A stretch of DNA of 64,000 bases, taken from positions 1 to 64,000 of the forward strand of contig NZ_WTVA01000002.1 in NCBI RefSeq assembly GCF_009882935.1. Direction: 5' to 3'. This stretch comes from Sneathiella chungangensis (GTDB taxonomy: Bacteria; Pseudomonadota; Alphaproteobacteria; Sneathiellales; Sneathiellaceae). The notes below the pieces were generated by a model. The model was not told the origin of the DNA. It saw only the letters and a list, made by a program, of their open reading frames with translations, and made no database searches. The first letter of the stretch is position 1; every line of letters starts with the position of its first letter. The translations under genes were made by a program, and so were the position numbers. Positions 161 through 20,984 of this stretch are shown piece after piece.

Positions 161-1891
161 TTAATCTAATTCATCGATGACAATGCACCAGTAGATGCCG
201 CCGTTTAGATAGTCCGCCATATCGCAATCAAACTGGTCGCGTTCTCTGGATATCACTGTCGATATCTGTCGGTCGGCGAGTAGACGGCTCCAGACGGAAA
301 GCCCATCCTGCGTCGAGGTGGACTGAAAGTCCTGGATTGCGGGAGGGTCGTAGAACATGAGGAGCTTTACTTCGGGAAACCTGGCCAGGAATTCGATTTT
401 TTCGGTTCGCTCGAAGAGTAGCTTGCTTTCCCGAATTGCGCCGAGACCGCTGGCCAGAATGCAGCCGATAAATGACAAGAGAGCAATGCCGACAAGTATG
501 CGGCTAACCATCTGCATCCGACCTCTACCTTCCAGAAAAATAGCCGCGACGGATAAGAATAAGACGCCCGGCCAGGCGAAGGGGACGTATCGAGCCCACC
601 AGGATTCTGGAAAAAACATGGAGATCGCGATCATGGCGATGCCAAATAGCGCTAAACTATCTCCCGTGCGATGCCATTTGTATTTGGATTTGTCGCGGCT
701 GGCCAGCTTGACTATTCCATACGAGGCGATCGAAACAATAAGTGCAAGACTGAAAAACGGACCAAAGCCGCCCCGCCTCGTGTCGAACCGCATAAATTTA
801 AATTCCGAGACATGAAAAGTCCCCGGAACTTTTATTTCAATTGGGGCGTCGATGGGCCATTCACTATGATCCGTCCGGGCAAAAATGCCATATATGAACT
901 TCATCGGCGCAGATAGCGGTATTACATTTGACGGTTCATTGCCTTTCATAATTTGTTCGACGGGCGGATAAAGAAGGTCCCCGTGATCTGCGATATTCGT
1001 CACATAGGGTTTGTAACCAACGGCAACAACACTGAAAATGAAGGCAAAGCCATATAGGATTCCCTTGTGTTTTATCCAGACGAAAACCTCTGTGAATGGG
1101 CTGTTATTGGAACTTCTATACGCAATTTCAGCAATAAAGCCGCCGAAGACGAGCAGAGGTGCGTAATAAAGCGCAGCCGTCTTGGTGTTGACCATCAAAA
1201 TTATGCAAGCCACGATGCCGAGGCGGGTCAACCAGTTGGGTGAGACGGTGTCTGACAACAGGAAAAGAACGAGGGCCGCTCCAAAAAGATAGAGCGGAGC
1301 ATCAACGTAATGGGTTAGGAGTTGTCCGATCACCACCGGATTCCCGGCGATTATACCGGCAAACAACAGAGCTAAAACCTGATTACGGTACGGTAGAAGA
1401 GATTCGAACCTTTCAATGAAAAAACTGTAAGCAAGAAGAAAGACAGCTGCCGTCAGCCCGGCAATCAGGGATTGGCCCGACATCAGTAGTCCGGTGGCGC
1501 CGACGATATAGGATTGAAGAACCCAGTATCCGTTGGGATAGGAGTCCACCCAAATATTGGAATGGGAAGAGAGAAACGGGTTCCAGCCCGCCGCAATTTC
1601 CCAAATTGCACTCAAATGATACGCATAGCCGTCGAATCCGGGGTCGTAAAAGGACCTGGTCGCGAAACTCCAGACCAGGAGAATGGCAAAAAAAGACAAT
1701 ATGCTTGACAGGCCGATGATTACATCAGTGCGTTTGCCCATGAGGGCAACAATTCCAAGCGAAAGGACCACCGATGCCGAAATAAAAACCGCACCGGGAT
1801 GCCATGTTTGAGTTGAAAGGCGGCTAAGTATGAGAAGAATTGCCAGAAATAAGAAGATCGATGACGCGCCAATACGTGCAAATCTCGTCAT
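161..1891 (-). CDS. GT-C-like multispanning membrane protein, paralogue 3 of 3
   Basis: I do not recognise a named family. The 576-residue protein has about ten to twelve hydrophobic segments, a long extracytoplasmic loop after the third with FDGYAYHL (about 86-93) and DSYPNGYW, then HYVDAPLY (about 194), NTKTAALYY (about 235), DTRRGGFGPFFS (about 370) and ESWWARYVPFAW (about 430). The C-terminus is a small soluble tail ending in a C-x12-C pair with Trp before the second Cys. Acidic residues in the first large outer loop are typical of GT-C transferases that use polyprenyl-phosphate sugars, so a glycosyltransferase role is inferred. The two upstream genes are paralogues with the same landmarks. 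The start has GGGGAAAA upstream. DNA here is visibly AT-richer than most of the window. Confidence 0.8.
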   Translation of the reverse strand: MTRFARIGASSIFLFLAILLILSRLSTQTWHPGAVFISASVVLSLGIVALMGKRTDVIIGLSSILSFFAILLVWSFATRSFYDPGFDGYAYHLSAIWEIAAGWNPFLSSHSNIWVDSYPNGYWVLQSYIVGATGLLMSGQSLIAGLTAAVFLLAYSFFIERFESLLPYRNQVLALLFAGIIAGNPVVIGQLLTHYVDAPLYLFGAALVLFLLSDTVSPNWLTRLGIVACIILMVNTKTAALYYAPLLVFGGFIAEIAYRSSNNSPFTEVFVWIKHKGILYGFAFIFSVVAVGYKPYVTNIADHGDLLYPPVEQIMKGNEPSNVIPLSAPMKFIYGIFARTDHSEWPIDAPIEIKVPGTFHVSEFKFMRFDTRRGGFGPFFSLALIVSIASYGIVKLASRDKSKYKWHRTGDSLALFGIAMIAISMFFPESWWARYVPFAWPGVLFLSVAAIFLEGRGRMQMVSRILVGIALLSFIGCILASGLGAIRESKLLFERTEKIEFLARFPEVKLLMFYDPPAIQDFQSTSTQDGLSVWSRLLADRQISTVISRERDQFDCDMADYLNGGIYWCIVIDELD

Positions 1892-1964: not shown

Positions 1965-3716
1965 TCATTTGCGGACGCACCATAGAACATTTCCATCGAA
2001 AAAGCCAAAATGCTCGCATTCTTCTTTATTGATTTCCTGTACTATCGTCGTATTGACCCCTCTATCCTCCAGAAGCCGGGTCCAAGTCTTGTCAGAAGAG
2101 GAAATCAATGTCGATTGATGGTCTGCAATAGTGCGTGGATCTTCAATGAGAGCGAGTTCCACGACGCGGAAGGATTTCATTTGTTCAATTACGGCGGTTC
2201 GTTGGTATGTATGCCAGCTCTGTCGAAGAGCGCCGAGGGCGCCGGCCGCGATATTGACTACAAAACATATCACCACGAGGCCAAATAAGATGCGTGAAAG
2301 GGAGATGATTTTTCCATTTTCCGCCATGCGCATCGCGGAATAGGCGATGAGAAAGACACTCAGCCAAATGAACGGGATATAACGGGCCCACCAGGATTCT
2401 GGAAAAAATGCCGATGCACCGACCAGGACGAAGCCAAACAATGCGAAAGCATCTTCTTCCTTGCGCCAGATGCCGGCACCATTTTTCCGGCGAGCTAATT
2501 TCCCTATGGCATAGGCGGCCAAGGCCAGAATAAGCGATAAACTAAATAACGGACCAAATCCGCCACGCCGCGTATCGAAATCGAGATCCTTGAACTCAAA
2601 CAGCTTTACTGATCCGGGTATCTTTAATTCAACAGGCGCCGTCACCGGTACGGGCCAGACACTATCTTCCGTTCGCGAGAGAATTCCATACACAAATTTC
2701 ATGGGGACGGAAAGCGGCTCAAGATTGACGGGGATATTCGTATCCATAATCTTGTCTACGGAAGGATAAAGAAACTGTCCGTGATCGCTGACATTTGTGA
2801 CATAGGGCTTAAAGCCGATCAGCAGAATACCGATAAAAAATGCGAGGCCGTAGGGGATGCCTTTTGATCTGATTAATACAAAAAGATTTTGAAAACGGGA
2901 AATTCTGGTGTCGCTAAATATCCACTCTATTGCCAGCGCCCCGAGCACAAACAACGGGACGTAATAGAGAGACGCCGTCTTCGTGTTGACCATCAGAATA
3001 ATGCAGCTCATAGCGGCCCAGCGGGTCAGCCGGTTGCCGCTAAATGCGTCGGAGAGCAGAAATAAAATGAGGGCGGTACCAAGAAGATAGATTACGCCGT
3101 CCACATAGTGAGTCATGATCTGGGTGAGAACGACGGGATTGGCCACGACAATAGCGGAGAAAAGCGCGGCTTGGAGTAATTGCGAAAGCGAGGATCGATA
3201 TGTCGAGCGATCCAGAAAAAAGCCGAAAGCCAGTAAATACACAGCGGCGATAAGACCGACTGTAAGGGCCCGTCCTGACAAAAGAATTTCCGTCATTGCG
3301 ACAATATAGGATTGCAGCGCCCAATAACCGTTCGGGTAGGAATCAACCCAGATATTGTCGTGCGAGGAAAGGAATGGGTTCCATCCCTCCACAAACGCCC
3401 AAATCGCCGGAAGATGATATGAATGGCCATCGTGGCCGGCGTCATACAGGATCTGTGTCGCAAATGCCCATATTGCTATGACAGCAAGAAAGCCGGCAAT
3501 ACTCAGTATTGCCGGTAATGTTGCTTTTTTTGTCCCGGCCAAACGCATTATTAAAATGGTGATTAAGACCGAAAACAACAAAAGAAAGGCAGGGGGGGCC
3601 AGGTTGAAGTATGGCGGCCGACCTGCTGCGAGCAATATCGTCAGAAATAGAAAAATCGCTGCCGCCCCCATGTTGGCGGACCGGCCAATGGGAATATTGT
3701 TTGAGGTTCGTTCCAT
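1965..3716 (-). CDS. GT-C-like multispanning membrane protein, paralogue 2 of 3
   Basis: This 583-residue membrane protein is colinear with its two neighbours. It shares GHDGHSYHLPAIW and DSYPNGYWALQSYIVA in the first large loop, NTKTASLYY, DTRRGGFGPLFS, and PESWWARYIPFIW near the last membrane segments. Its C-terminal tail also ends with a C-x12-C pair (CEHF...LWC). The gap to the next gene downstream is 73 bases and the strand is the same, so co-transcription is likely. A periplasmic-face glycosyltransferase of the GT-C fold is my inference from topology and the conserved acidic loop. Acceptor and donor are unknown. The Shine-Dalgarno sequence is weak. Confidence 0.8.
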   Translation of the reverse strand: MERTSNNIPIGRSANMGAAAIFLFLTILLAAGRPPYFNLAPPAFLLLFSVLITILIMRLAGTKKATLPAILSIAGFLAVIAIWAFATQILYDAGHDGHSYHLPAIWAFVEGWNPFLSSHDNIWVDSYPNGYWALQSYIVAMTEILLSGRALTVGLIAAVYLLAFGFFLDRSTYRSSLSQLLQAALFSAIVVANPVVLTQIMTHYVDGVIYLLGTALILFLLSDAFSGNRLTRWAAMSCIILMVNTKTASLYYVPLFVLGALAIEWIFSDTRISRFQNLFVLIRSKGIPYGLAFFIGILLIGFKPYVTNVSDHGQFLYPSVDKIMDTNIPVNLEPLSVPMKFVYGILSRTEDSVWPVPVTAPVELKIPGSVKLFEFKDLDFDTRRGGFGPLFSLSLILALAAYAIGKLARRKNGAGIWRKEEDAFALFGFVLVGASAFFPESWWARYIPFIWLSVFLIAYSAMRMAENGKIISLSRILFGLVVICFVVNIAAGALGALRQSWHTYQRTAVIEQMKSFRVVELALIEDPRTIADHQSTLISSSDKTWTRLLEDRGVNTTIVQEINKEECEHFGFFDGNVLWCVRK

Positions 3717-3829: not shown

Positions 3830-5605
3830 TTATTCAGCCGTTGTTCCGGATTTCTTGGTCGCCTCTTTTGGAACACACCATATAACGCCGCCAAGAAAAT
3901 ATCCGTCCAGCAAACATTTTTCATGATTGAAATTGGGTTGCTCGATCGTATTTACACCCCGCCGCTGTAAAATCGAGGCCCAGACGGCCACTGCGTCGGA
4001 TTGGCTTTTTGACTGATAATCTTGGAACACTCGTATATCTTTTACCAAGGTAAGTTCGACGACCGAATACTCCTCCATTACGTCAATTGGAAGAGTGCGG
4101 TTGTAACTGTGATAATGCTGGCGAAGCGCGCCAAGGCCACCTGATAAAACGCATCCAATCAACGAGAGAACAGCAATGACAGACAATGTCCTTACGATTA
4201 CAACGGATTTTTTAGCGCCTTTCAAATAAAAGGCAGGAAGGACAAAGAATATACAGCTAAGCCATGCAAACGGGATATACCGGGCCCACCAAGATTCAGG
4301 AAAGAACATTGACGACACTAGCAGTACTCCGCCAAGCCCCGCAATCGCGTCACCTTCCCTGCTCCAAGAATATAATTCGGTATTTCGAGCTACAATGCGG
4401 CACGCAGCATAGGAAATTAGCGACAGTATCAACGCAAGGCTGAAAAACGGACCAAATCCGCCACGGCGAATGTCAAAGTACGGGGCGATAAATTCCTTAA
4501 TTTGAAATGTACCGGGGAACTTTAGATGAATTTCTTCTTCGGTTGGTACACCCCAAAGATTGTCTTCCGTTTTCGCAAAAACACCATAAAGAAACTTCAT
4601 CGGCGCCGGCATCGGTCCCTTAACGTTCATCGGTGTATTCCCGTCCATAATCTCGTCACTCTGCGGATAGAGCAAAGCCCCGTGATCCAGGATATTCGTT
4701 ACATATGGCTTGTAACCGATCGCGACGATAGCGAAAATGCCGGCGGCCGCATACAAAATGCCTTTAGATTTGAACCAGTCGATCACGCGCGGGAATAACC
4801 GTAAATTCGCTTTGTTTAAAATCAGCTCCATCACAAAACCGCCAAAAATGATCAACGGTCCGAAATAGAGTGCACTGGTTTTGATGTTTAAAAAAAGGAT
4901 GATGCCGCCGCAAACTCCCCATTTTGCCAATCGATTAGGCTCAATAGCGTCCGTCAACATAAAAAATACAATGGCAGTTCCGACAATATAGAGTGGGGCA
5001 TCGACATAATGCGTCTGAATTTGTATAAGGACGACCGGATTTGCGATGACAAGGCCGGCAATTATAAGCGCCGCGACAAAGCGAACTCGCGGGCGTTGAG
5101 ACGACAGACGTCCGTTGAAAAAGGCGAATGCCTGCAATCCGACAAAAATTGCCAACCCGCCTAGTAAGGCCAGTCCGGCAAAGGGAAGCCCGGTTGTCGC
5201 AACGATATAGGACTGCAGGGCCCAGTACCCTGTGGGATAGGAGTCGATCCAGATATTATTATGCGGGGTGAAAAACGGATGCCAGCCAGCGGCTAAATCC
5301 CATATCGCGGGGAGATGATAGACGTAGCCGTCGTGACCGACCGGATATAAGGACTGGGTGCCGAAAGCCCAGATCGCGAGAACCGCAAAAAAAGCAAGAA
5401 GCGCATATAAGGCAACACGCGTAGACCTCCACCCATCGCTTGCGAAAACCAACAAAAGCGTCACGCCGGCCGAAATAGGAACTATAATCGCCGCCGATAG
5501 GACGCCCTGCACGGGAAGCCTGTTGGCAATCAGTAACAAGGCGGCGAAAGTAAAAATCGAGGCGGCAACCGTATTGGCAGTTCGTATCGAAAATTGATCG
5601 ATCAT
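3830..5605 (-). CDS. GT-C-like multispanning membrane protein, paralogue 1 of 3
   Basis: This is the first gene of the tandem trio. The 591-residue protein has GHDGYVYHLPAIW and DSYPTGYWALQSYIVA in the outer loop, HYVDAPLYI, NIKTSALYF, DIRRGGFGPFFS and ESWWARYIPFAW. The tail carries RRGVNT and ends in a C-x12-C pair (CLLDG...IWC) plus a short Lys/Thr-rich extension its paralogues lack. The shared landmarks show the three arose by tandem duplication. The function is probably transfer of a lipid-linked sugar on the periplasmic side, by analogy with GT-C enzymes; nothing in the sequence fixes the substrate. A poor ribosome site precedes the ATG. Confidence 0.8.
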   Translation of the reverse strand: MIDQFSIRTANTVAASIFTFAALLLIANRLPVQGVLSAAIIVPISAGVTLLLVFASDGWRSTRVALYALLAFFAVLAIWAFGTQSLYPVGHDGYVYHLPAIWDLAAGWHPFFTPHNNIWIDSYPTGYWALQSYIVATTGLPFAGLALLGGLAIFVGLQAFAFFNGRLSSQRPRVRFVAALIIAGLVIANPVVLIQIQTHYVDAPLYIVGTAIVFFMLTDAIEPNRLAKWGVCGGIILFLNIKTSALYFGPLIIFGGFVMELILNKANLRLFPRVIDWFKSKGILYAAAGIFAIVAIGYKPYVTNILDHGALLYPQSDEIMDGNTPMNVKGPMPAPMKFLYGVFAKTEDNLWGVPTEEEIHLKFPGTFQIKEFIAPYFDIRRGGFGPFFSLALILSLISYAACRIVARNTELYSWSREGDAIAGLGGVLLVSSMFFPESWWARYIPFAWLSCIFFVLPAFYLKGAKKSVVIVRTLSVIAVLSLIGCVLSGGLGALRQHYHSYNRTLPIDVMEEYSVVELTLVKDIRVFQDYQSKSQSDAVAVWASILQRRGVNTIEQPNFNHEKCLLDGYFLGGVIWCVPKEATKKSGTTAE

Positions 5606-6044
5606 TGAGTTAAGCTGTCTTTTTTAATAAGGAAACTCAGACTATTCACCGGGATCATGTCAATTTATGAATATATGTAAAGATCAAAGTTAAAATGCGT
5701 CGCAGAAATAGCGGCATTCGAAAAATATCTGATCTCCAGTTGGCATTTGGTCAACAAGCAAAATGGCTAAATGAATGCCTTATTTACCGCCTGTCTAGGC
5801 GCGCAGAATTACACCTAATTTCCGACAAAATATAACTAGCGCCGCGTCGCCGACATTGGTTTGATATTTTTTGCTGCATGGCAAAGAGTTGCAATAAAAA
5901 ATTTGCTGACGTAAGTGATACTACGATATTCGTGAAAGAACGCATTTTCTTGGCACTGGTTTTTTTGGCCGTTTAATGGCAGGTTGATCGCTGTTCTTGA
6001 ATGGATTTTATCGTGTATTATTAACTCACTGCGACGGAAAACAA
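5606..6044. other. AT-rich divergent intergenic region without a gene
   Basis: These 440 bases separate the minus-strand GT-C-like trio from the plus-strand GT87-like gene, so they should hold both promoters. I see no convincing -35/-10 pair, RNA gene or clear dyad, and no open frame that looks coding. An in-frame TTG at 5997 could extend the downstream gene. Confidence 0.5.
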
Positions 6045-7430
6045 ATGCAGCGTTCCTATTTTGACGACAAAAAGCAAAATACTGTCTTAGTCTTTTTAGT
6101 GATTGTCAGTGTTCTGATAATACTTAGCCTGGCCTCAGATGTTTTGCTCTGGGTATTAAATTTAGACAGATTTTCGCTCGGCTTGGTCAGAATTTATTTT
6201 GCCTTTACGCTGGACAGTGCGGATTCATGGTGGCCCATTAATGAGGCTGTACAAGTCTACGCGGCGGATCCCGAAGCCGGCATTTATCAGACGGTATTTT
6301 TTGAAAAGAAAATCAAGTTTCAATACCCTCCCATGTCTTTGCTGCCGTTTGTTGCGTTTGAGAAAATGGGGTACGGCTTTCATGCGGTGGTCAAGCTGAT
6401 GATGCTGCTGTCGTTCGTGTCGATTATTGGAATAATTCTAAGCCTTTATCGCACGGTGGTGACCAGCTGTTCGGCCATCGGGGAGGGCGAGTTCATCAAG
6501 GGAAGGTCGATGAAAGTGGCGCTTCTGGCGATGCTTATTATCGGCACATTGACCTTTTATCCGGTCGTTAATGGGTACCGGCTTGGCCAAGTTCAGGTTT
6601 TTATCAATCTGGCGATTTGCCTGATGTTCATGTGCTGGCTGGAAAACTGGAAATTGCTGGCGGGCATCATGGTCGCGCTTGCGGCAATCGTGAAACCGCA
6701 GTATGGACTTATCCTGATCTGGGCCTTGTTCCGAAAGGAGAAGGACTTTTTGATCGGGATGTTGCTTGTGCTGATCCCGACAGGGATTGCCTCGCTGATT
6801 GTATTCGGTTTTCAGGAGCATCTCGATTATCTGTCCACACTTTCGGTCATGGGGCAGCATGGCGAGGTCTATCGCTCTAATCAAAGTATGAACGGTCTGC
6901 TTAATCGCCTTCTATCTGGGATGAGTACGATTGAATTCCAATTTTATTCTTTTGCCCCCTACAACGTCATTGTCCACGCCGGTACCCTAATATCGACCAT
7001 ATTGCTTCTTTTATTCGGGATGTTCTATCGGCCCGGAAGCAATAAAAGTGTTTCTGCGGGTGAACTGAACCTTAACTCGGCGCTGGATTTGGCGACGATG
7101 GTTATCATCGCGACTATTGTGTCACCCATCGCGTGGTCCCATCATTACGCGACCTTTTGGCCAATTCTGATTTTGGGATTTTTGGTTGCGATCAAGATCT
7201 TCCAGAAACAACGCAATTGGCTCTCAGTTGTCAACCTAGTGCTGCTGAGCGTAAGCTATCTTTTTGTCTCGAACTATTTCTATTGGGCGTTGGATGACGC
7301 GTCGGTAATTGACCCGCCATGGAATCTCCTACAGTCCTATATATATTTCGGGGGTCTGATCCTGCTGATCTCTCTGACGGTCATGCGAAGAACGATCAAG
7401 ACGGGATTCGCAAATGTTATTTCGAAATAA
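6045..7430 (+). CDS. GT87-like (DUF2029) polyprenol-sugar-dependent glycosyltransferase
   Basis: The 461-residue integral membrane protein has about ten hydrophobic segments. Signs of the GT87/DUF2029 family, whose known members are mannosyltransferases using polyprenyl-phosphate mannose, are FQYPPMSLLP (about residue 92), NGYRLGQVQVF (about 176) and the segment AAIVKPQYGLILIWALFRK (about 213), followed by a late SHHYATFWP motif. The ATG at 6045 (preceded by GACGGAAA) is preferred; an upstream TTG at 5997 would add 16 residues with no signal-like character. It is transcribed divergently from the GT-C-like trio and probably belongs to the same glycosylation locus. Substrate and acceptor are not visible. 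Confidence 0.8.
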   Translation: MQRSYFDDKKQNTVLVFLVIVSVLIILSLASDVLLWVLNLDRFSLGLVRIYFAFTLDSADSWWPINEAVQVYAADPEAGIYQTVFFEKKIKFQYPPMSLLPFVAFEKMGYGFHAVVKLMMLLSFVSIIGIILSLYRTVVTSCSAIGEGEFIKGRSMKVALLAMLIIGTLTFYPVVNGYRLGQVQVFINLAICLMFMCWLENWKLLAGIMVALAAIVKPQYGLILIWALFRKEKDFLIGMLLVLIPTGIASLIVFGFQEHLDYLSTLSVMGQHGEVYRSNQSMNGLLNRLLSGMSTIEFQFYSFAPYNVIVHAGTLISTILLLLFGMFYRPGSNKSVSAGELNLNSALDLATMVIIATIVSPIAWSHHYATFWPILILGFLVAIKIFQKQRNWLSVVNLVLLSVSYLFVSNYFYWALDDASVIDPPWNLLQSYIYFGGLILLISLTVMRRTIKTGFANVISK

Positions 7431-17116: not shown

Positions 17117-17346
17117 TGGCGACCGTCCTTTGTATGATGGTTTCAATAATTACCTGATACGACATCGAACCGGCTGTGGATCACCAGATAACGGCGGCAC
17201 GCAATGATCAGGAGTTTACTCTCGGCTGTTTCGCCCCCGAAATTTCCCAACGAGTGTGATGAAGATGCGGGCCTTGCGAATTCAGTAAATATTTCCTGTG
17301 ATCCCGGGCCGCTCAGGCTTTTGCGGGCGACGCGAAAAGTCCAAGT

Positions 17347-18939
17347 TTAGCGGCGATCGAACCGTTCCACATGAATATTATCCCACTGCTTTACTGTTGC
17401 CGAGGCATATTCTTCGGCGAGTACGCTTCGGGTAACGTGGTTGGGATCGAAAAGCGCTTCTTCCCGGGTAACCAGAAAGACCCGGTCCTTGCCCTTGATC
17501 AGGGATCTGATGCTGTCGGCATCTTCCGGGCGGATGCCGGGAACAGCGGGAAATCCATCTGGATAAAAATCGGAGAATGTCTGCGCCGGATATTCGGCTG
17601 GAACACTTTCGATCTTGGCGGCGAGTTGTGTCTCGTCCACATAGAGGCGCGCCGGCAGATACAGGTCGTTCGGCAATAAGAGAATGACGTCATTTTCCCG
17701 GGCCTCCCCATCGATGCTCGCCATAATTTGATCCCATGGCTCTTTCTCGGCCGCCCGCAGCGTCGCGAACAGCCCGAGCCCGATCACCACAATATACAGT
17801 GCCTTGACGGCGTTTCGAAATGTCGACTTATCAATATATTCTATTGAAATCGACAACAGCAGAAAGTAGGGGATTAAGCCGGGCAACAACGTCCGTTCCA
17901 GAAAGATATTTGGGCCCAGAAAAGAAATAAGCGCGGAAATAACCGGAACCGCGAAGCAGCTCAATACGAAGAAACAGGCAAGCGAGACCTTTTTTTGCTG
18001 AACTAGTTTGCACAGACCCAATAGAACGAGTGCACCGGAGACCAGGCTCACCAAAATTCCCAGACCGATCCGCGCCGCCCAGACAACTGAATAGCCGCCG
18101 AACGCTACATCCATGTATTTGTCGGCATAGCCAAAACCAAAGATCCGGCGCATGATCTGCACAAAACTGGTTAGTGTGGGCTCCGCCACCCAACTCGACT
18201 CTTGCCAGTAAAGCAGCTGCTTCAATATCTGAACGATCAGCGGCGCGGAGACCGCGAGGACGATGATCGTGCAGAAAAGTATCTTTAAGAAAAACCGCTT
18301 TTCGAATTTTCGTTCCACCGTCCAATGCGCAAATAATGACAGGAACAGCACCGCGGAAAATATACCGCCCAGGTGATGTGACCAGTTGGTAAGAACCGCG
18401 CCGAACGTAAAGACGACCCACCCGCGGAGCGTATCGTCTTCACCATCCGAAAGAATTGAAATGAGGCCGAGAACGGTGAGTGAATAGGCGAAGAAGAGCA
18501 GGATGTAGGGACGTGCCTCTATCGAATACCAGACGATGACCGGGCTGAAACAAATAAGAATGCTGTTGAAGAGGGTGGCGCCGGCGTCATCAATTTGCAG
18601 ATAGCGCGCAACTTTCCTTGTCGCGACATAGGTGGTGGCAATGAGGAGGAGGCTAATGAAGATCGATAGCGAACGATGCCATATCCCCGTTTCATCCGCC
18701 TCCACGATCCCCCAAAGCCTGACAAGGGAGTAATAGACTGGCGGGTGCGCTTCGATTTCGGGCAACCAGAACCATATATCGTGGAAGGACAGATTTGCGA
18801 ACCATGCCGTGTATCCTTCATCCAGCCAGTAGGGAAGGGAATGTTCGTTGATAATCTTAATTAACAGGGAAGATAGAATAACGACAGCGAGGGCGAGGAA
18901 ATGTCGTGCTTGAATGTTTCGGTTTTGCTGCCGCTGCAT
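17347..18939 (-). CDS. GT39-family (PMT/ArnT-like) glycosyltransferase
   Basis: The roughly 530-residue integral membrane protein has the GT-C layout of the GT39/ArnT group. The first outer loop carries the acidic pair in LPYWLDEGYTAWFANLS, then EAHPPVYYSLVRLW, matching the DE motif and HPP segment of that family. About eleven membrane helices are followed by a soluble C-terminal domain of about 130 residues (QLAAKIESVPAEYPAQTFSD region). Such enzymes move a sugar from polyprenyl phosphate to a lipid or protein at the outer face. The ATG at 18939 is preferred; a GTG at 18966 lacks a ribosome site. It is divergent from the HAD-UbiA gene, which could make its donor. Confidence 0.85.
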   Translation of the reverse strand: MQRQQNRNIQARHFLALAVVILSSLLIKIINEHSLPYWLDEGYTAWFANLSFHDIWFWLPEIEAHPPVYYSLVRLWGIVEADETGIWHRSLSIFISLLLIATTYVATRKVARYLQIDDAGATLFNSILICFSPVIVWYSIEARPYILLFFAYSLTVLGLISILSDGEDDTLRGWVVFTFGAVLTNWSHHLGGIFSAVLFLSLFAHWTVERKFEKRFFLKILFCTIIVLAVSAPLIVQILKQLLYWQESSWVAEPTLTSFVQIMRRIFGFGYADKYMDVAFGGYSVVWAARIGLGILVSLVSGALVLLGLCKLVQQKKVSLACFFVLSCFAVPVISALISFLGPNIFLERTLLPGLIPYFLLLSISIEYIDKSTFRNAVKALYIVVIGLGLFATLRAAEKEPWDQIMASIDGEARENDVILLLPNDLYLPARLYVDETQLAAKIESVPAEYPAQTFSDFYPDGFPAVPGIRPEDADSIRSLIKGKDRVFLVTREEALFDPNHVTRSVLAEEYASATVKQWDNIHVERFDRR

Positions 18940-19124
18940 GCCCGCTATTCCGGATTGGTTGCCCACAAAAATGTCACAGTCGAGAATGCTAGATTAATAT
19001 GGTTAAAGCAATCCTTATATGCTTCCTGCAAATTATAAAGTATGAAAAATAAACATAAAATTAAGTTTTTTTGGTTAACAAACGAGCAGATGTCGGAACT
19101 ATCAACATTGAGGATGAAAGTCTT

Positions 19125-20561
19125 TTGATTGATAAAATAAAGTATGTCGTTGTTGATCTTGATGGCACGTTGGTTCGAACCGATTTGTTCGTTGAATCCC
19201 TGCTGCGTTATCTGAAGGGTAACCCATTTAAGATTGTCCGACTGCTCCTCTGGATATTGAAGGGGCGCGCCTATGCCAAGCAAAAGGTAGCGGAAAATAT
19301 TGATATCGACGCGGCCTACCTCCCCTATGAAGAGTCCCTGATTGCCTATCTCAAGCAACTGAAATCACAGGGAAAAGAAATCATTCTCGCGACGGCGTCA
19401 CACCGTAACTATGCCGATCGGGTTGCCGAACATCTGGGGATCTTCGATCGGGTGATGGCAACCGAGGAAAATCACAATCTGAAGGGTCGTAACAAGCTGG
19501 CGGCCATCAAGGAATTAATCGGCGACGAAGATTTCGCTTATGCGGGCGACAGTGCAGCCGACACGCCAATCTGGCGGGCGGCCGCTGCAAATATCATGGT
19601 GAATGCGCCGGCCGCGAACGTGGCGGAAGCCGAAAAAGACGGAAAATTGATATGGCAGGCGAAATCGGAGACCTCTGCCGTCAAGTCGTTTGTAAAGGAA
19701 ATGCGGCCGCACCAATATGCGAAGAACGTCTTGATATTCGTTCCTCTGGTTACTTCCCATGAATATTCTGACCCTACCCATATTGTCACCACGTTGCTGG
19801 CCTTTGTGTGCTTCAGCTTTTGTGCGTCCGGCGTTTATTTCCTGAATGATCTCCTTGATCTGCAGGAAGACCGCCGTCATCGCAGCAAGAAATATCGGCC
19901 GATCGCGTCGGGAGCGCTACCGCTTGTGGTCGGTGTCGCCGGGGCAATCGGATTTCCGCTCCTTGCCTTCGCTCTTTCGATCGCGTTTCTGCCGCTCGCT
20001 TTCTGTGGCGTGCTGCTGGTTTATTTCGCTATCACCAACGCCTATTCTTTCCTTTTAAAGCGGATCACGACCGTTGACGTGATGACGTTGGCAATCCTTT
20101 ACACGCTGCGGGTTGTCGCCGGCGCCGCCGCATCGGGCGTGAGCCTGTCATATTGGCTGATCGGGTTTTCGGTGTTCATCTTCGTCAGTCTCGCCTTCAT
20201 GAAGCGCTATATCGAAGTCGCCGCCCTGTCGGACAAGAGCGGGCAGGTGCGCGGTCGGGGCTATTCCAGAGATGACCGCGAAACAATGTTCAGTCTCGGC
20301 ATTGCAAATTTTACCGCGGCCGTCATCATTCTTACACTTTATATAAACAGCCCATTTGTTCTGACATCCTATTCCACGCCTGAATTCCTTTGGCTCCTCT
20401 GCCTGATTGTCCTGTTTTGGGGAAACCATATCTGGGTTTGTGCCCGGCGGGGCGATATACCGGATGATCCCGTCGTTTTCGCCATCAAGGACAGGGCCAG
20501 CCAGCTGGTCGGGGTCAGCTTTGTTATCGTTCTTTTTCTGGCGAAATATATCGAATTCTGA
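19125..20561 (+). CDS. HAD-UbiA fusion, polyprenyl-phosphate phosphoribosyltransferase-like
   Basis: The N-terminal about 200 residues are a HAD phosphatase: VVVDLDGTLVRTD (motif I), ILATASH (II), GRNKLAAI (III) and AYAGDSAADTPIW (IV). The C-terminal about 270 residues are a UbiA membrane domain with NDLLDLQEDRRHRSKKYRP and YSFLLKRITTVDV...RVVAGA. These match the aspartate motifs of decaprenyl-phosphate 5-phosphoribosyltransferases rather than quinone prenyltransferases. Known enzymes of that kind join PRPP to polyprenyl phosphate; the fused phosphatase would remove the 5'-phosphate, giving polyprenyl-phosphoryl ribose (inferred). There is no ATG: a TTG at 19125 after GAGG is preferred, and a TTG at 19071 would add 18 residues. 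The SMR gene follows by 48 bases. Confidence 0.85.
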   Translation: MIDKIKYVVVDLDGTLVRTDLFVESLLRYLKGNPFKIVRLLLWILKGRAYAKQKVAENIDIDAAYLPYEESLIAYLKQLKSQGKEIILATASHRNYADRVAEHLGIFDRVMATEENHNLKGRNKLAAIKELIGDEDFAYAGDSAADTPIWRAAAANIMVNAPAANVAEAEKDGKLIWQAKSETSAVKSFVKEMRPHQYAKNVLIFVPLVTSHEYSDPTHIVTTLLAFVCFSFCASGVYFLNDLLDLQEDRRHRSKKYRPIASGALPLVVGVAGAIGFPLLAFALSIAFLPLAFCGVLLVYFAITNAYSFLLKRITTVDVMTLAILYTLRVVAGAAASGVSLSYWLIGFSVFIFVSLAFMKRYIEVAALSDKSGQVRGRGYSRDDRETMFSLGIANFTAAVIILTLYINSPFVLTSYSTPEFLWLLCLIVLFWGNHIWVCARRGDIPDDPVVFAIKDRASQLVGVSFVIVLFLAKYIEF

Positions 20562-20609
20562 CCTGCCGGATGCGCGGCGCGTGAAATATAACTTAGGAGA
20601 CGATAAAAA

Positions 20610-20984
20610 ATGTCCATGCTCGTTCTCAGCCTGATTTTGCTGACGGTCTTTTCCTCCGCTTGCGCGCAGCTCGTGTTGAAACTTGGCGTAGCGGATCAGA
20701 AAATGCAGGCGGCGATGCAGTCGGGCATTTTTGACTCCCTGATGGCCGCGGCGTTGTCGCCCTTCATCTGGCTGGGGTTGATTATTTACGCCCTCAGCGT
20801 GGCGCTCTGGCTCTGGGTGCTGTCGAAAGTCGATTTAAGCGTCGCCTATCCTTTCGTCGGAATCGGTTTTGTCGTCACGATGCTTTTCGGGATACTCCTG
20901 CTCAACGAGAATGTGACGCCGATGCGCATTATCGGGACCATTCTGATCGTCGGGGGATGCGTTCTCGTTGGTCGGTCAGCTTAG
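20610..20984 (+). CDS. Small EmrE/SMR-type membrane protein, possible lipid-sugar flippase subunit
   Basis: The 124-residue protein has four membrane helices, with a C-terminal pattern SKVDLSVAYPFVGIGFVVT...LLNENVTPMRIIGTILIVGG typical of the SMR/DMT superfamily. It is slightly longer than drug-exporting EmrE, because of an extra loop after helix 1, like the ArnE/ArnF flippase subunits. A GGAGACGATAAAAA ribosome site precedes the ATG. It follows the HAD-UbiA gene by 48 bases and is probably co-transcribed, so flipping a polyprenyl-phosphoryl sugar is the most sensible role. That role is inferred; drug export is the alternative. Confidence 0.85.
   Translation: MSMLVLSLILLTVFSSACAQLVLKLGVADQKMQAAMQSGIFDSLMAAALSPFIWLGLIIYALSVALWLWVLSKVDLSVAYPFVGIGFVVTMLFGILLLNENVTPMRIIGTILIVGGCVLVGRSA

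Follow-up and report, generated by a model that had tools for sequence, protein, structure and literature searches.

A HAD-UbiA fusion, an SMR-type protein, and a divergent GT-C-fold protein in Sneathiella chungangensis as a probable ribofuranose-transfer system

Gene organization of the locus

The window analyzed here is a stretch of 64,000 nucleotides from Sneathiella chungangensis (contig NZ_WTVA01000002.1, positions 1 to 64,000), which forms part of a 3.81 Mb genome that is 99.98% complete. A first-pass annotation of this DNA had noticed three genes between positions 17347 and 20984, namely a HAD phosphatase fused to a UbiA domain, an SMR-type protein, and a divergent GT39-type transferase. 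All three are open frames, and they encode a HAD-UbiA fusion, an SMR/EamA-type protein, and a divergent polytopic protein. We propose that the three probably act together to transfer ribofuranose outside the cytoplasm.

The fusion gene is placed at 19125..20561 on the forward strand, and its product is proposed to be a polyprenyl-phosphoryl-ribose synthase on the basis of the open reading frame and its Pfam, NCBIfam, and Protein Data Bank (PDB) matches. The longest frame (19071-20561) specifies 496 amino acids from a TTG codon at 19071. All five siblings checked have a TTG where the window has position 19125, a start that would give a product of 478 amino acids. Because most homologues also start near this point, the protein probably has 478 residues, although residue numbers here follow the 496-residue frame. 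Pfam and the alignment columns delimit a HAD domain (residues 23-170; 19137..19580) that carries D29/D31, T108, and D160/D164. The UbiA domain (19749..20450), which lies within a match to PDB entry 8j8j spanning residues 202-487, includes an NDxxDxxxD motif (N259, D260, D263, and D267; 19845..19871) and a loop KRYxE motif (R379 and E382; 20202..20216).

Forty-eight bases downstream on the same strand, and preceded by an AGGAG sequence, is the SMR/EamA-type gene (20610..20984), whose product of 124 amino acids is a proposed lipid-pentose flippase. The third gene (17347..18966, reverse strand) diverges from the fusion across an intergenic region at 18967..19124 and encodes a polytopic protein of 539 amino acids with a predicted GT-C fold, which we propose to be a periplasmic pentofuranosyltransferase. 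A scan of the locus for promoters and terminators gave nothing better than shuffled sequences, and a comparison with PHROGs yielded nothing informative. At all nine other Sneathiella HAD-UbiA loci an SMR gene adjoins the fusion, and the divergent GT-C gene is present at seven of them. Given this repetition, and given that the HAD-UbiA and SMR pair recurs in other bacterial classes, the three-gene arrangement is not a chance one.

The fusion carries a phosphoribosyl pyrophosphate site

Both halves of the fusion are recognized by Pfam above cut-off (UbiA, 74.1 bits; Hydrolase, 47.7 bits; HAD, 46.9 bits), as the first-pass annotation had supposed. The NCBIfam HAD-UbiA model PRK08238 (named "UbiA family prenyltransferase") matches the whole protein with 590.5 bits, where the cut-off is 351. 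Only two PDB sequence matches reach E≤0.001, 8j8j (E 1.9e-25) and 8j8k (E 3e-16), and both are Rv3806c from Mycobacterium tuberculosis.

The UbiA half had been read as a decaprenyl-phosphate phosphoribosyltransferase-type site from its Asp motifs, and a wider set of residues bears this out. As described for Rv3806c (PMC10994848), phosphoribosyl pyrophosphate (PRPP) or Mg is contacted by R22, K28, Y70, N73, D77, K87, R90, Q135, Y138, K143, and Y157. In the alignment to 8j8j, these correspond to window residues R212, K218, Y256, N259, D263, K273, R276, T322, Y325, K330, and Y344, and thus 10 of the 11 are identical. Across an alignment of 83 homologues (the window, 80 loci from genome contigs, and genomes G020 and G064), the R22, K28, Y70, N73, D77, K87, R90, and Y138 columns are invariant. 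The K143 column holds K in 82 rows, the Y157 column holds Y in 81 and F in two, and the Q135 column holds T in 82. Invariance at K28 is partly built in, because one of the two search patterns contained the K28/N29 pair. In the HAD half, D29 and D31 of the DxD motif are found in 82 of 83 rows (with a gap in the other), and D164 is found in all of them.

The same genome encodes a separate CtaB (337.2 bits; cut-off 210.3) and a 4-hydroxybenzoate octaprenyltransferase UbiA (382.8 bits; cut-off 275.45). Each keeps five of the 11 PRPP contacts, and both lack K28, Y70, K87, Q135, and Y157, the last being F in UbiA. The roles in quinone and haem synthesis are therefore taken, and the full PRPP set is specific to the fusion. 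According to the published account of Rv3806c, its phosphoribose sites lack conservation in the UbiA superfamily (PMC10994848).

Fusions of this kind are not rare. Matches by tblastn were found in 102 of 72,556 plasmid records; 82 of these cover 80% or more of the query, and identity is below 60% in every case. Among 95 genomes, the only full-length match outside Sneathiella is in G064 (39%), and the others are partial.

Searches for DprE1 and DprE2

The first-pass annotation saw no DprE1- or DprE2-like epimerase genes in the window and expected the sugar to stay ribose unless such genes lay elsewhere. Our search now covers the whole genome, and neither protein was found there. The best DprE1-model score is 51.3 bits in this genome and 52.7 bits among 24 Sneathiella genomes (this one included; 17 of the 24 are at least 90% complete with at most 5% contamination), none of which exceeds the curated cut-off of 500. 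That cut-off is not reached by any of 17 control and test genomes, including eight with a full-length match (332-425 bits), and for this reason the gap between 332 and 62 bits was used as the criterion. All four positive-control genomes hold a full-length DprE1 protein (332-385 bits). Among 13 genomes whose HAD-UbiA locus had none, four hold a full-length DprE1 elsewhere (L117, L130, L110, and L081), and the remaining nine score at most 61.6 bits: Methylomonas (L064), Emcibacteraceae (L066), Azonexus (L077), Burkholderiales (L084), Porticoccus (L101), Marivita (L136), Chromatiaceae (L109), Sphingomonadales (L127), and Isosphaeraceae (L098). Absence from these nine is provisional, because most are metagenome assemblies.

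Six FAD_binding_4 proteins of the S. chungangensis genome were considered as DprE1 candidates and rejected, with DprE1-model scores of at most 50.6 bits. Their best models are GlcD for three, GlcE for one, and a BagG/FevA-type oxygenase for another, all below cut-off, and MurB, above cut-off, for the last.

The DprE2 model was run on the S. chungangensis genome only, where its best score is 85.6 bits against a cut-off of 250. A DprE2-like protein beside the fusion in locus L069 reaches 203.8 bits, which is also below the cut-off. With no DprE1-like protein found in this genome or in the 23 other Sneathiella genomes, and with no DprE2 found in this one, the sugar most likely stays ribose, as had been anticipated.

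HAD-UbiA loci in other bacteria

A profile scan of genome contigs returned at least 595 pattern matches, at least 523 of which were confirmed, and the best 80 loci were analyzed. Locus counts come from hidden Markov model searches of stop-to-stop frames, and part of the loci are truncated where a contig ends. In L086, L120, and L126 the frame contains a stop, at which an X was placed. Among these best 80 loci, 61 include a DprE1-like protein and so probably make lipid-linked arabinose; a DprE2-like protein is present in 47, every one of which also has DprE1. An SMR gene lies within 2.5 kb of the fusion in 26 (14 without DprE1 in the locus and 12 with it), and five have neither DprE1 nor SMR.

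The 83 sequences were arranged in a quick tree with SH-aLRT support only. The window falls in a starred branch of 12 rows, all with an SMR gene and all without a DprE1 hit, from Sneathiella, Emcibacteraceae, and Marivita (Alphaproteobacteria) and from Methylomonas and Porticoccus (Gammaproteobacteria). Adding the betaproteobacterial Azonexus (L077) and Burkholderiales (L084) rows gives a side of 14 rows with a support of 92, which is not starred; no SMR gene is seen in L084, whose locus is cut. A single clade of all 17 DprE1-less rows is not rejected (approximately unbiased test, p-AU 0.09), and three of these rows stand elsewhere in the best tree.

Other loci show a DprE1 gene followed by an SMR gene with no DprE2-like match in the locus (L093, L102, L115, L122, L123, L124, L128, L131, L067, and L104). 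They belong to Nitratireductor, Aureimonas, Jiella, Cohaesibacter, and a Rhizobiaceae metagenome-assembled genome.

The SMR-type and GT-C-fold proteins

The protein encoded just downstream of the fusion scores above cut-off with both the EamA and Multi_Drug_Res models of Pfam, in agreement with the first-pass annotation, and a PDB sequence search with the SMR profile gave no match. Of the 24 Sneathiella genomes, the 10 that have a full-length HAD-UbiA fusion, and no others, carry its orthologue (at least 67% identity); a match of any kind is present in 12.

In G064 (L050:4208-10861), the gene adjoining the fusion is of the GtrA family, suggesting that the flippase class may vary. Farther along that strand, by about 2-5 kb, are genes for two large, hydrophobic-looking proteins without a Pfam family.

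No Pfam family matches the protein encoded at 17347-18966, even with hits up to E 1 allowed, NCBIfam gives no match either, and a PDB sequence search with its profile gave a single chance-like match (E 1.2). The earlier description of it as a divergent GT39-type transferase therefore holds only in part. The protein is divergent and its AlphaFold model has a GT-C fold, but the GT39 label is not borne out by sequence, since neither Pfam (PMT or PMT_2) nor NCBIfam assigns it. The model, built with seven Sneathiella sequences, has a predicted template modeling score (pTM) of 0.74 and a mean predicted local distance difference test score of 71.4. Its Foldseek matches are oligosaccharyltransferases, AftD, AftA, Pmt4, PglB, and a translocon complex. 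The VIA-align Z scores are 23.7 for STT3, 22.8 for ArnT (431 residues; root-mean-square deviation 5.4), 22.4 for Pmt4, 19.2 for AftA, 18.6 for AftD, 17.6 for AftB, and 15.1 for EmbB, with other GT-C-like entries down to PimE at 10.9 and then a drop to 5.9. The predicted fold is that of a GT-C enzyme, and such a fold does not tell the donor.

The GT-C gene is present in eight of the 24 Sneathiella genomes, all of which have the fusion. S. litorea and S. sedimenti are among the species in which the fusion, SMR, and GT-C genes occur together. Elsewhere, HAD-UbiA, SMR, and a GT-C protein scoring above the PMT_2 cut-off occur close together, with the latter beside the SMR gene or the fusion, in Methylomonas (L064), Azonexus (L077), and Marivita (L136), which belong to the branch of the window, and in Sphingomonadales (L127), which does not. 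A polytopic neighbor without a Pfam family is found in L066 and L101.

Neighboring genes and the GT-C-like/GT87 island

A second group of candidate users of the pentose donor lies near the start of the window. Three GT-C-like paralogues are encoded on the reverse strand, namely a (161..1891; 576 amino acids), b (1965..3716; 583 amino acids), and c (3830..5605; 591 amino acids), and beside them on the forward strand is a GT87 glycosyltransferase gene (5997..7430; Pfam GT87, 71.1 bits). Paralogues a and b are 45-47% identical to copy c. In siblings there are as many as six paralogues and between one and three copies of GT87, located about 7-26 kb from the fusion where they share a contig. The paralogue family is found in eight of the 24 genomes and GT87 in seven, all among the 10 with a fusion. 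An AlphaFold model for the trio, made with four sequences, has a pTM of 0.57, and its best match is ArnT with a Z of 10.2, an ambiguous value for helical proteins. By their location and by co-occurrence in one clade, the trio and GT87 are candidates for spending the pentose, as the first-pass annotation had also entertained.

Five of seven sibling loci (L042, L043, L045, L046, and L048) carry further genes upstream of the GT-C gene and the fusion, toward the photolyase, that encode a glycosyltransferase of family GT4, a calcineurin-like phosphoesterase, and a lipid kinase resembling YegS; L047 has two of the three. The Pfam names rest on L042 (L042:4298-7170), and in the window only 200 bases (17147-17346) occupy this place.

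Proposed mechanism and alternatives

Considering the gene anatomy, residue conservation, linkage, predicted fold, and the searches in which no DprE1 was found, the best reading of the locus, and in our view a likely one, is a ribose-type system of three components that transfers pentofuranose outside the cytoplasm. The activities in its steps are assigned by homology. The UbiA half would act as a polyprenyl phosphoribosyltransferase, and the fused HAD half would remove the 5′-phosphate to give polyprenyl-phosphate ribofuranose. This sugar would not be converted to arabinose, DprE1 and DprE2 not having been found. Movement of the lipid across the inner membrane would fall to the SMR protein, probably acting as a multimer, and the 539-residue GT-C enzyme could then transfer ribofuranose to a surface glycan, glycolipid, or protein. 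Part of the first-pass interpretation is thus retained (PRPP-type site, HAD fusion, SMR neighbor, GT-C fold, and no DprE1/DprE2), and the assignment to GT39 by sequence is dropped.

Several observations weigh against this reading. Three NCBIfam DPPRS models (PRK12324) score the fusion below cut-off (151.9 bits against 207, 132.6 against 234, and 113.2 against 474), and Q135 of Rv3806c is replaced by T322. The SMR protein scores far below the cut-offs for ArnF (42.9 bits against 99) and ArnE (39.1 against 92), and for this reason its proposed lipid-sugar cargo is deduced from its position. When the GT-C model was compared with the PDB by Foldseek, its 11 matches at E≤0.001 had modest TM-scores (0.40-0.52 by query length). 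One Sneathiella genome with the fusion, G015, has no GT-C gene of the 539-residue family and holds only the island paralogue family. In another, G020, the usual GT-C gene is replaced by one encoding a polytopic protein of 705 amino acids without a Pfam match, located after the SMR gene (L049:7007-9121) and the only such candidate there. In the Chromatiaceae locus L109, no GT-C-like gene adjoins the HAD-UbiA and SMR pair. Furthermore, a usable rpoB is present in 18 of the 24 Sneathiella genomes (the six left out include the positives G007 and G020), and in the tree built from these sequences the eight fusion-positive genomes all fall to one side of a branch with a support of 94 (not starred), requiring one change. 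Co-occurrence within the genus therefore amounts to a single evolutionary event, which Fisher values overstate, and an independent-pairs test, with one pair only, gives no statistical support. Finally, no pentose glycan turned up for Sneathiella in a thin search of the literature.

It is unlikely that the donor is instead lipid-linked arabinose or xylose, made by an unrecognized epimerase encoded elsewhere that converts polyprenyl-phosphate ribose before flipping. The frequency of DprE1-like genes (61 of the best 80 loci) and the wealth of SDR proteins in the S. chungangensis genome (37 DprE2-model matches) lend this idea some weight, as does the Citrobacter youngae O2 system, for which a single SDR epimerase is described as giving xylofuranose (PMC11127046). 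It must be set against the searches that found no DprE1-like protein in any of the 24 Sneathiella genomes or in six non-Sneathiella genomes of the 14-row branch (best 61.6 bits), the low best DprE2-model score, and the absence of an epimerase gene beside the fusion in the window.

We regard it as quite unlikely that the SMR protein serves as a common exporter of drugs or metabolites and adjoins the fusion by chance, while another protein flips the lipid. Drug exporters do occur in the SMR and EamA families, the ArnE and ArnF scores are below cut-off, and 54 of the best 80 loci have no SMR gene within 2.5 kb. Chance, however, would poorly match the linkage and the identical distribution with HAD-UbiA in the 24 genomes, the 26 loci across classes that do have the pair, and the four SMR drug-exporter models listed among the NCBIfam matches, which score lower on this protein than ArnF and ArnE. 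A role for the UbiA half as an aromatic (quinone) or haem prenyltransferase, with an unrelated phosphatase as the HAD half, is very improbable. Such a role is compatible with the Pfam UbiA match and with the NDxxDxxxD residues, which are common to the quinone UbiA of this genome and retained at three of four positions in CtaB. It was rejected on family scores (TIGR01474, 20.9 bits against 275.45; TIGR01473, 27.3 against 210.3), as both jobs are held by other genes that exceed these cut-offs, and the phosphoribose contacts K28 and Y70 are kept in the fusion but not in UbiA or CtaB.

Extending the ribose-transfer reading, it is tempting to speculate, though we consider this doubtful, that a ribose-only, SMR-dependent HAD-UbiA branch of Alpha-, Gamma-, and perhaps Betaproteobacteria feeds, in Sneathiella, a surface glycan built by the 539-residue GT-C protein together with three to six tandem paralogues and GT87. 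The product might be a polyribofuranosyl or heavily ribosylated polymer, akin to mycobacterial arabinan without epimerization.

Significance and comparison with known systems

The branch in which no DprE1 was found opens a route to studying what decides between ribose and arabinose as the output. The locus also offers a GT-C enzyme outside the named Pfam families and predicts ribofuranose in the Sneathiella envelope. Among the papers listed in our literature searches, none is on a HAD-UbiA fusion with an SMR neighbor.

Transfer of aminoarabinose by ArnE/ArnF and ArnT likewise pairs an SMR-type flippase with a GT-C enzyme acting on an undecaprenyl-phosphate pentose, and the ArnT Z of 22.8 adds to this likeness. 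The Arn system differs in its sugar and in donor synthesis, and the window SMR protein is below the ArnE/ArnF cut-offs.

The mycobacterial pathway of Rv3806c (PMC10994848), DprE1/DprE2, and the Emb and Aft enzymes shares 10 of 11 PRPP contacts and the use of GT-C acceptor enzymes. It has a separate, unrelated phosphatase and DprE1/DprE2, whereas the window has a HAD fusion and neither epimerase protein was found. An SMR-type exporter, Rv3789, has been proposed for that pathway, and the same account describes SMR flipping of polyprenyl-phosphate pentoses as lacking direct experimental evidence (PMC11127046). The window system is thus a way to ask whether SMR proteins perform this step. The Pseudomonas PPPRS enzymes for pilin arabinosylation, whose arabinose product is a prediction, are also described as UbiA-type (PMC11127046). 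As reported there, the phosphatase domain is C-terminal in the P. syringae candidate and a separate enzyme in P. aeruginosa, in contrast to the N-terminal, fused HAD domain of the window.

The closest likeness is to Citrobacter youngae O1, whose ORF15, ORF14, and ORF12 comprise a HAD-UbiA protein, a candidate flippase of the MATE family, and a GT-C enzyme of family GT136 (PMC11127046). The single chain of ORF15 is described as joining an N-terminal HAD phosphoribose phosphatase to a C-terminal polyprenyl phosphoribosyltransferase of the UbiA type, and ORF15 was shown to make farnesyl-phosphate ribofuranose from PRPP (PMC11127046, 2024); farnesyl-phosphate ribose has m/z 435 in that work, and its 5-phosphate form m/z 513. 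Synthesis of polyprenyl-phosphate ribose by one polypeptide, as inferred in the first-pass annotation, has therefore already been demonstrated for the same architecture and is not new. The two systems share this domain order, a flippase candidate, a GT-C enzyme, and ribose without an epimerase. Both modules of the window fusion carry the catalytic residues described there, and in a comparison made by the published text, N247, D248, D251, D255, R366, and E369 of ORF15 have the spacing of N259, D260, D263, D267, R379, and E382. The GT-C counterpart is matched by predicted fold only, through the ArnT comparison. Relative to the published Citrobacter system, the fusion and the overall logic are already known; what differs is an SMR/EamA protein in place of MATE, a GT-C protein without a named Pfam or NCBIfam family, and membership of a DprE1-less HAD-UbiA branch.

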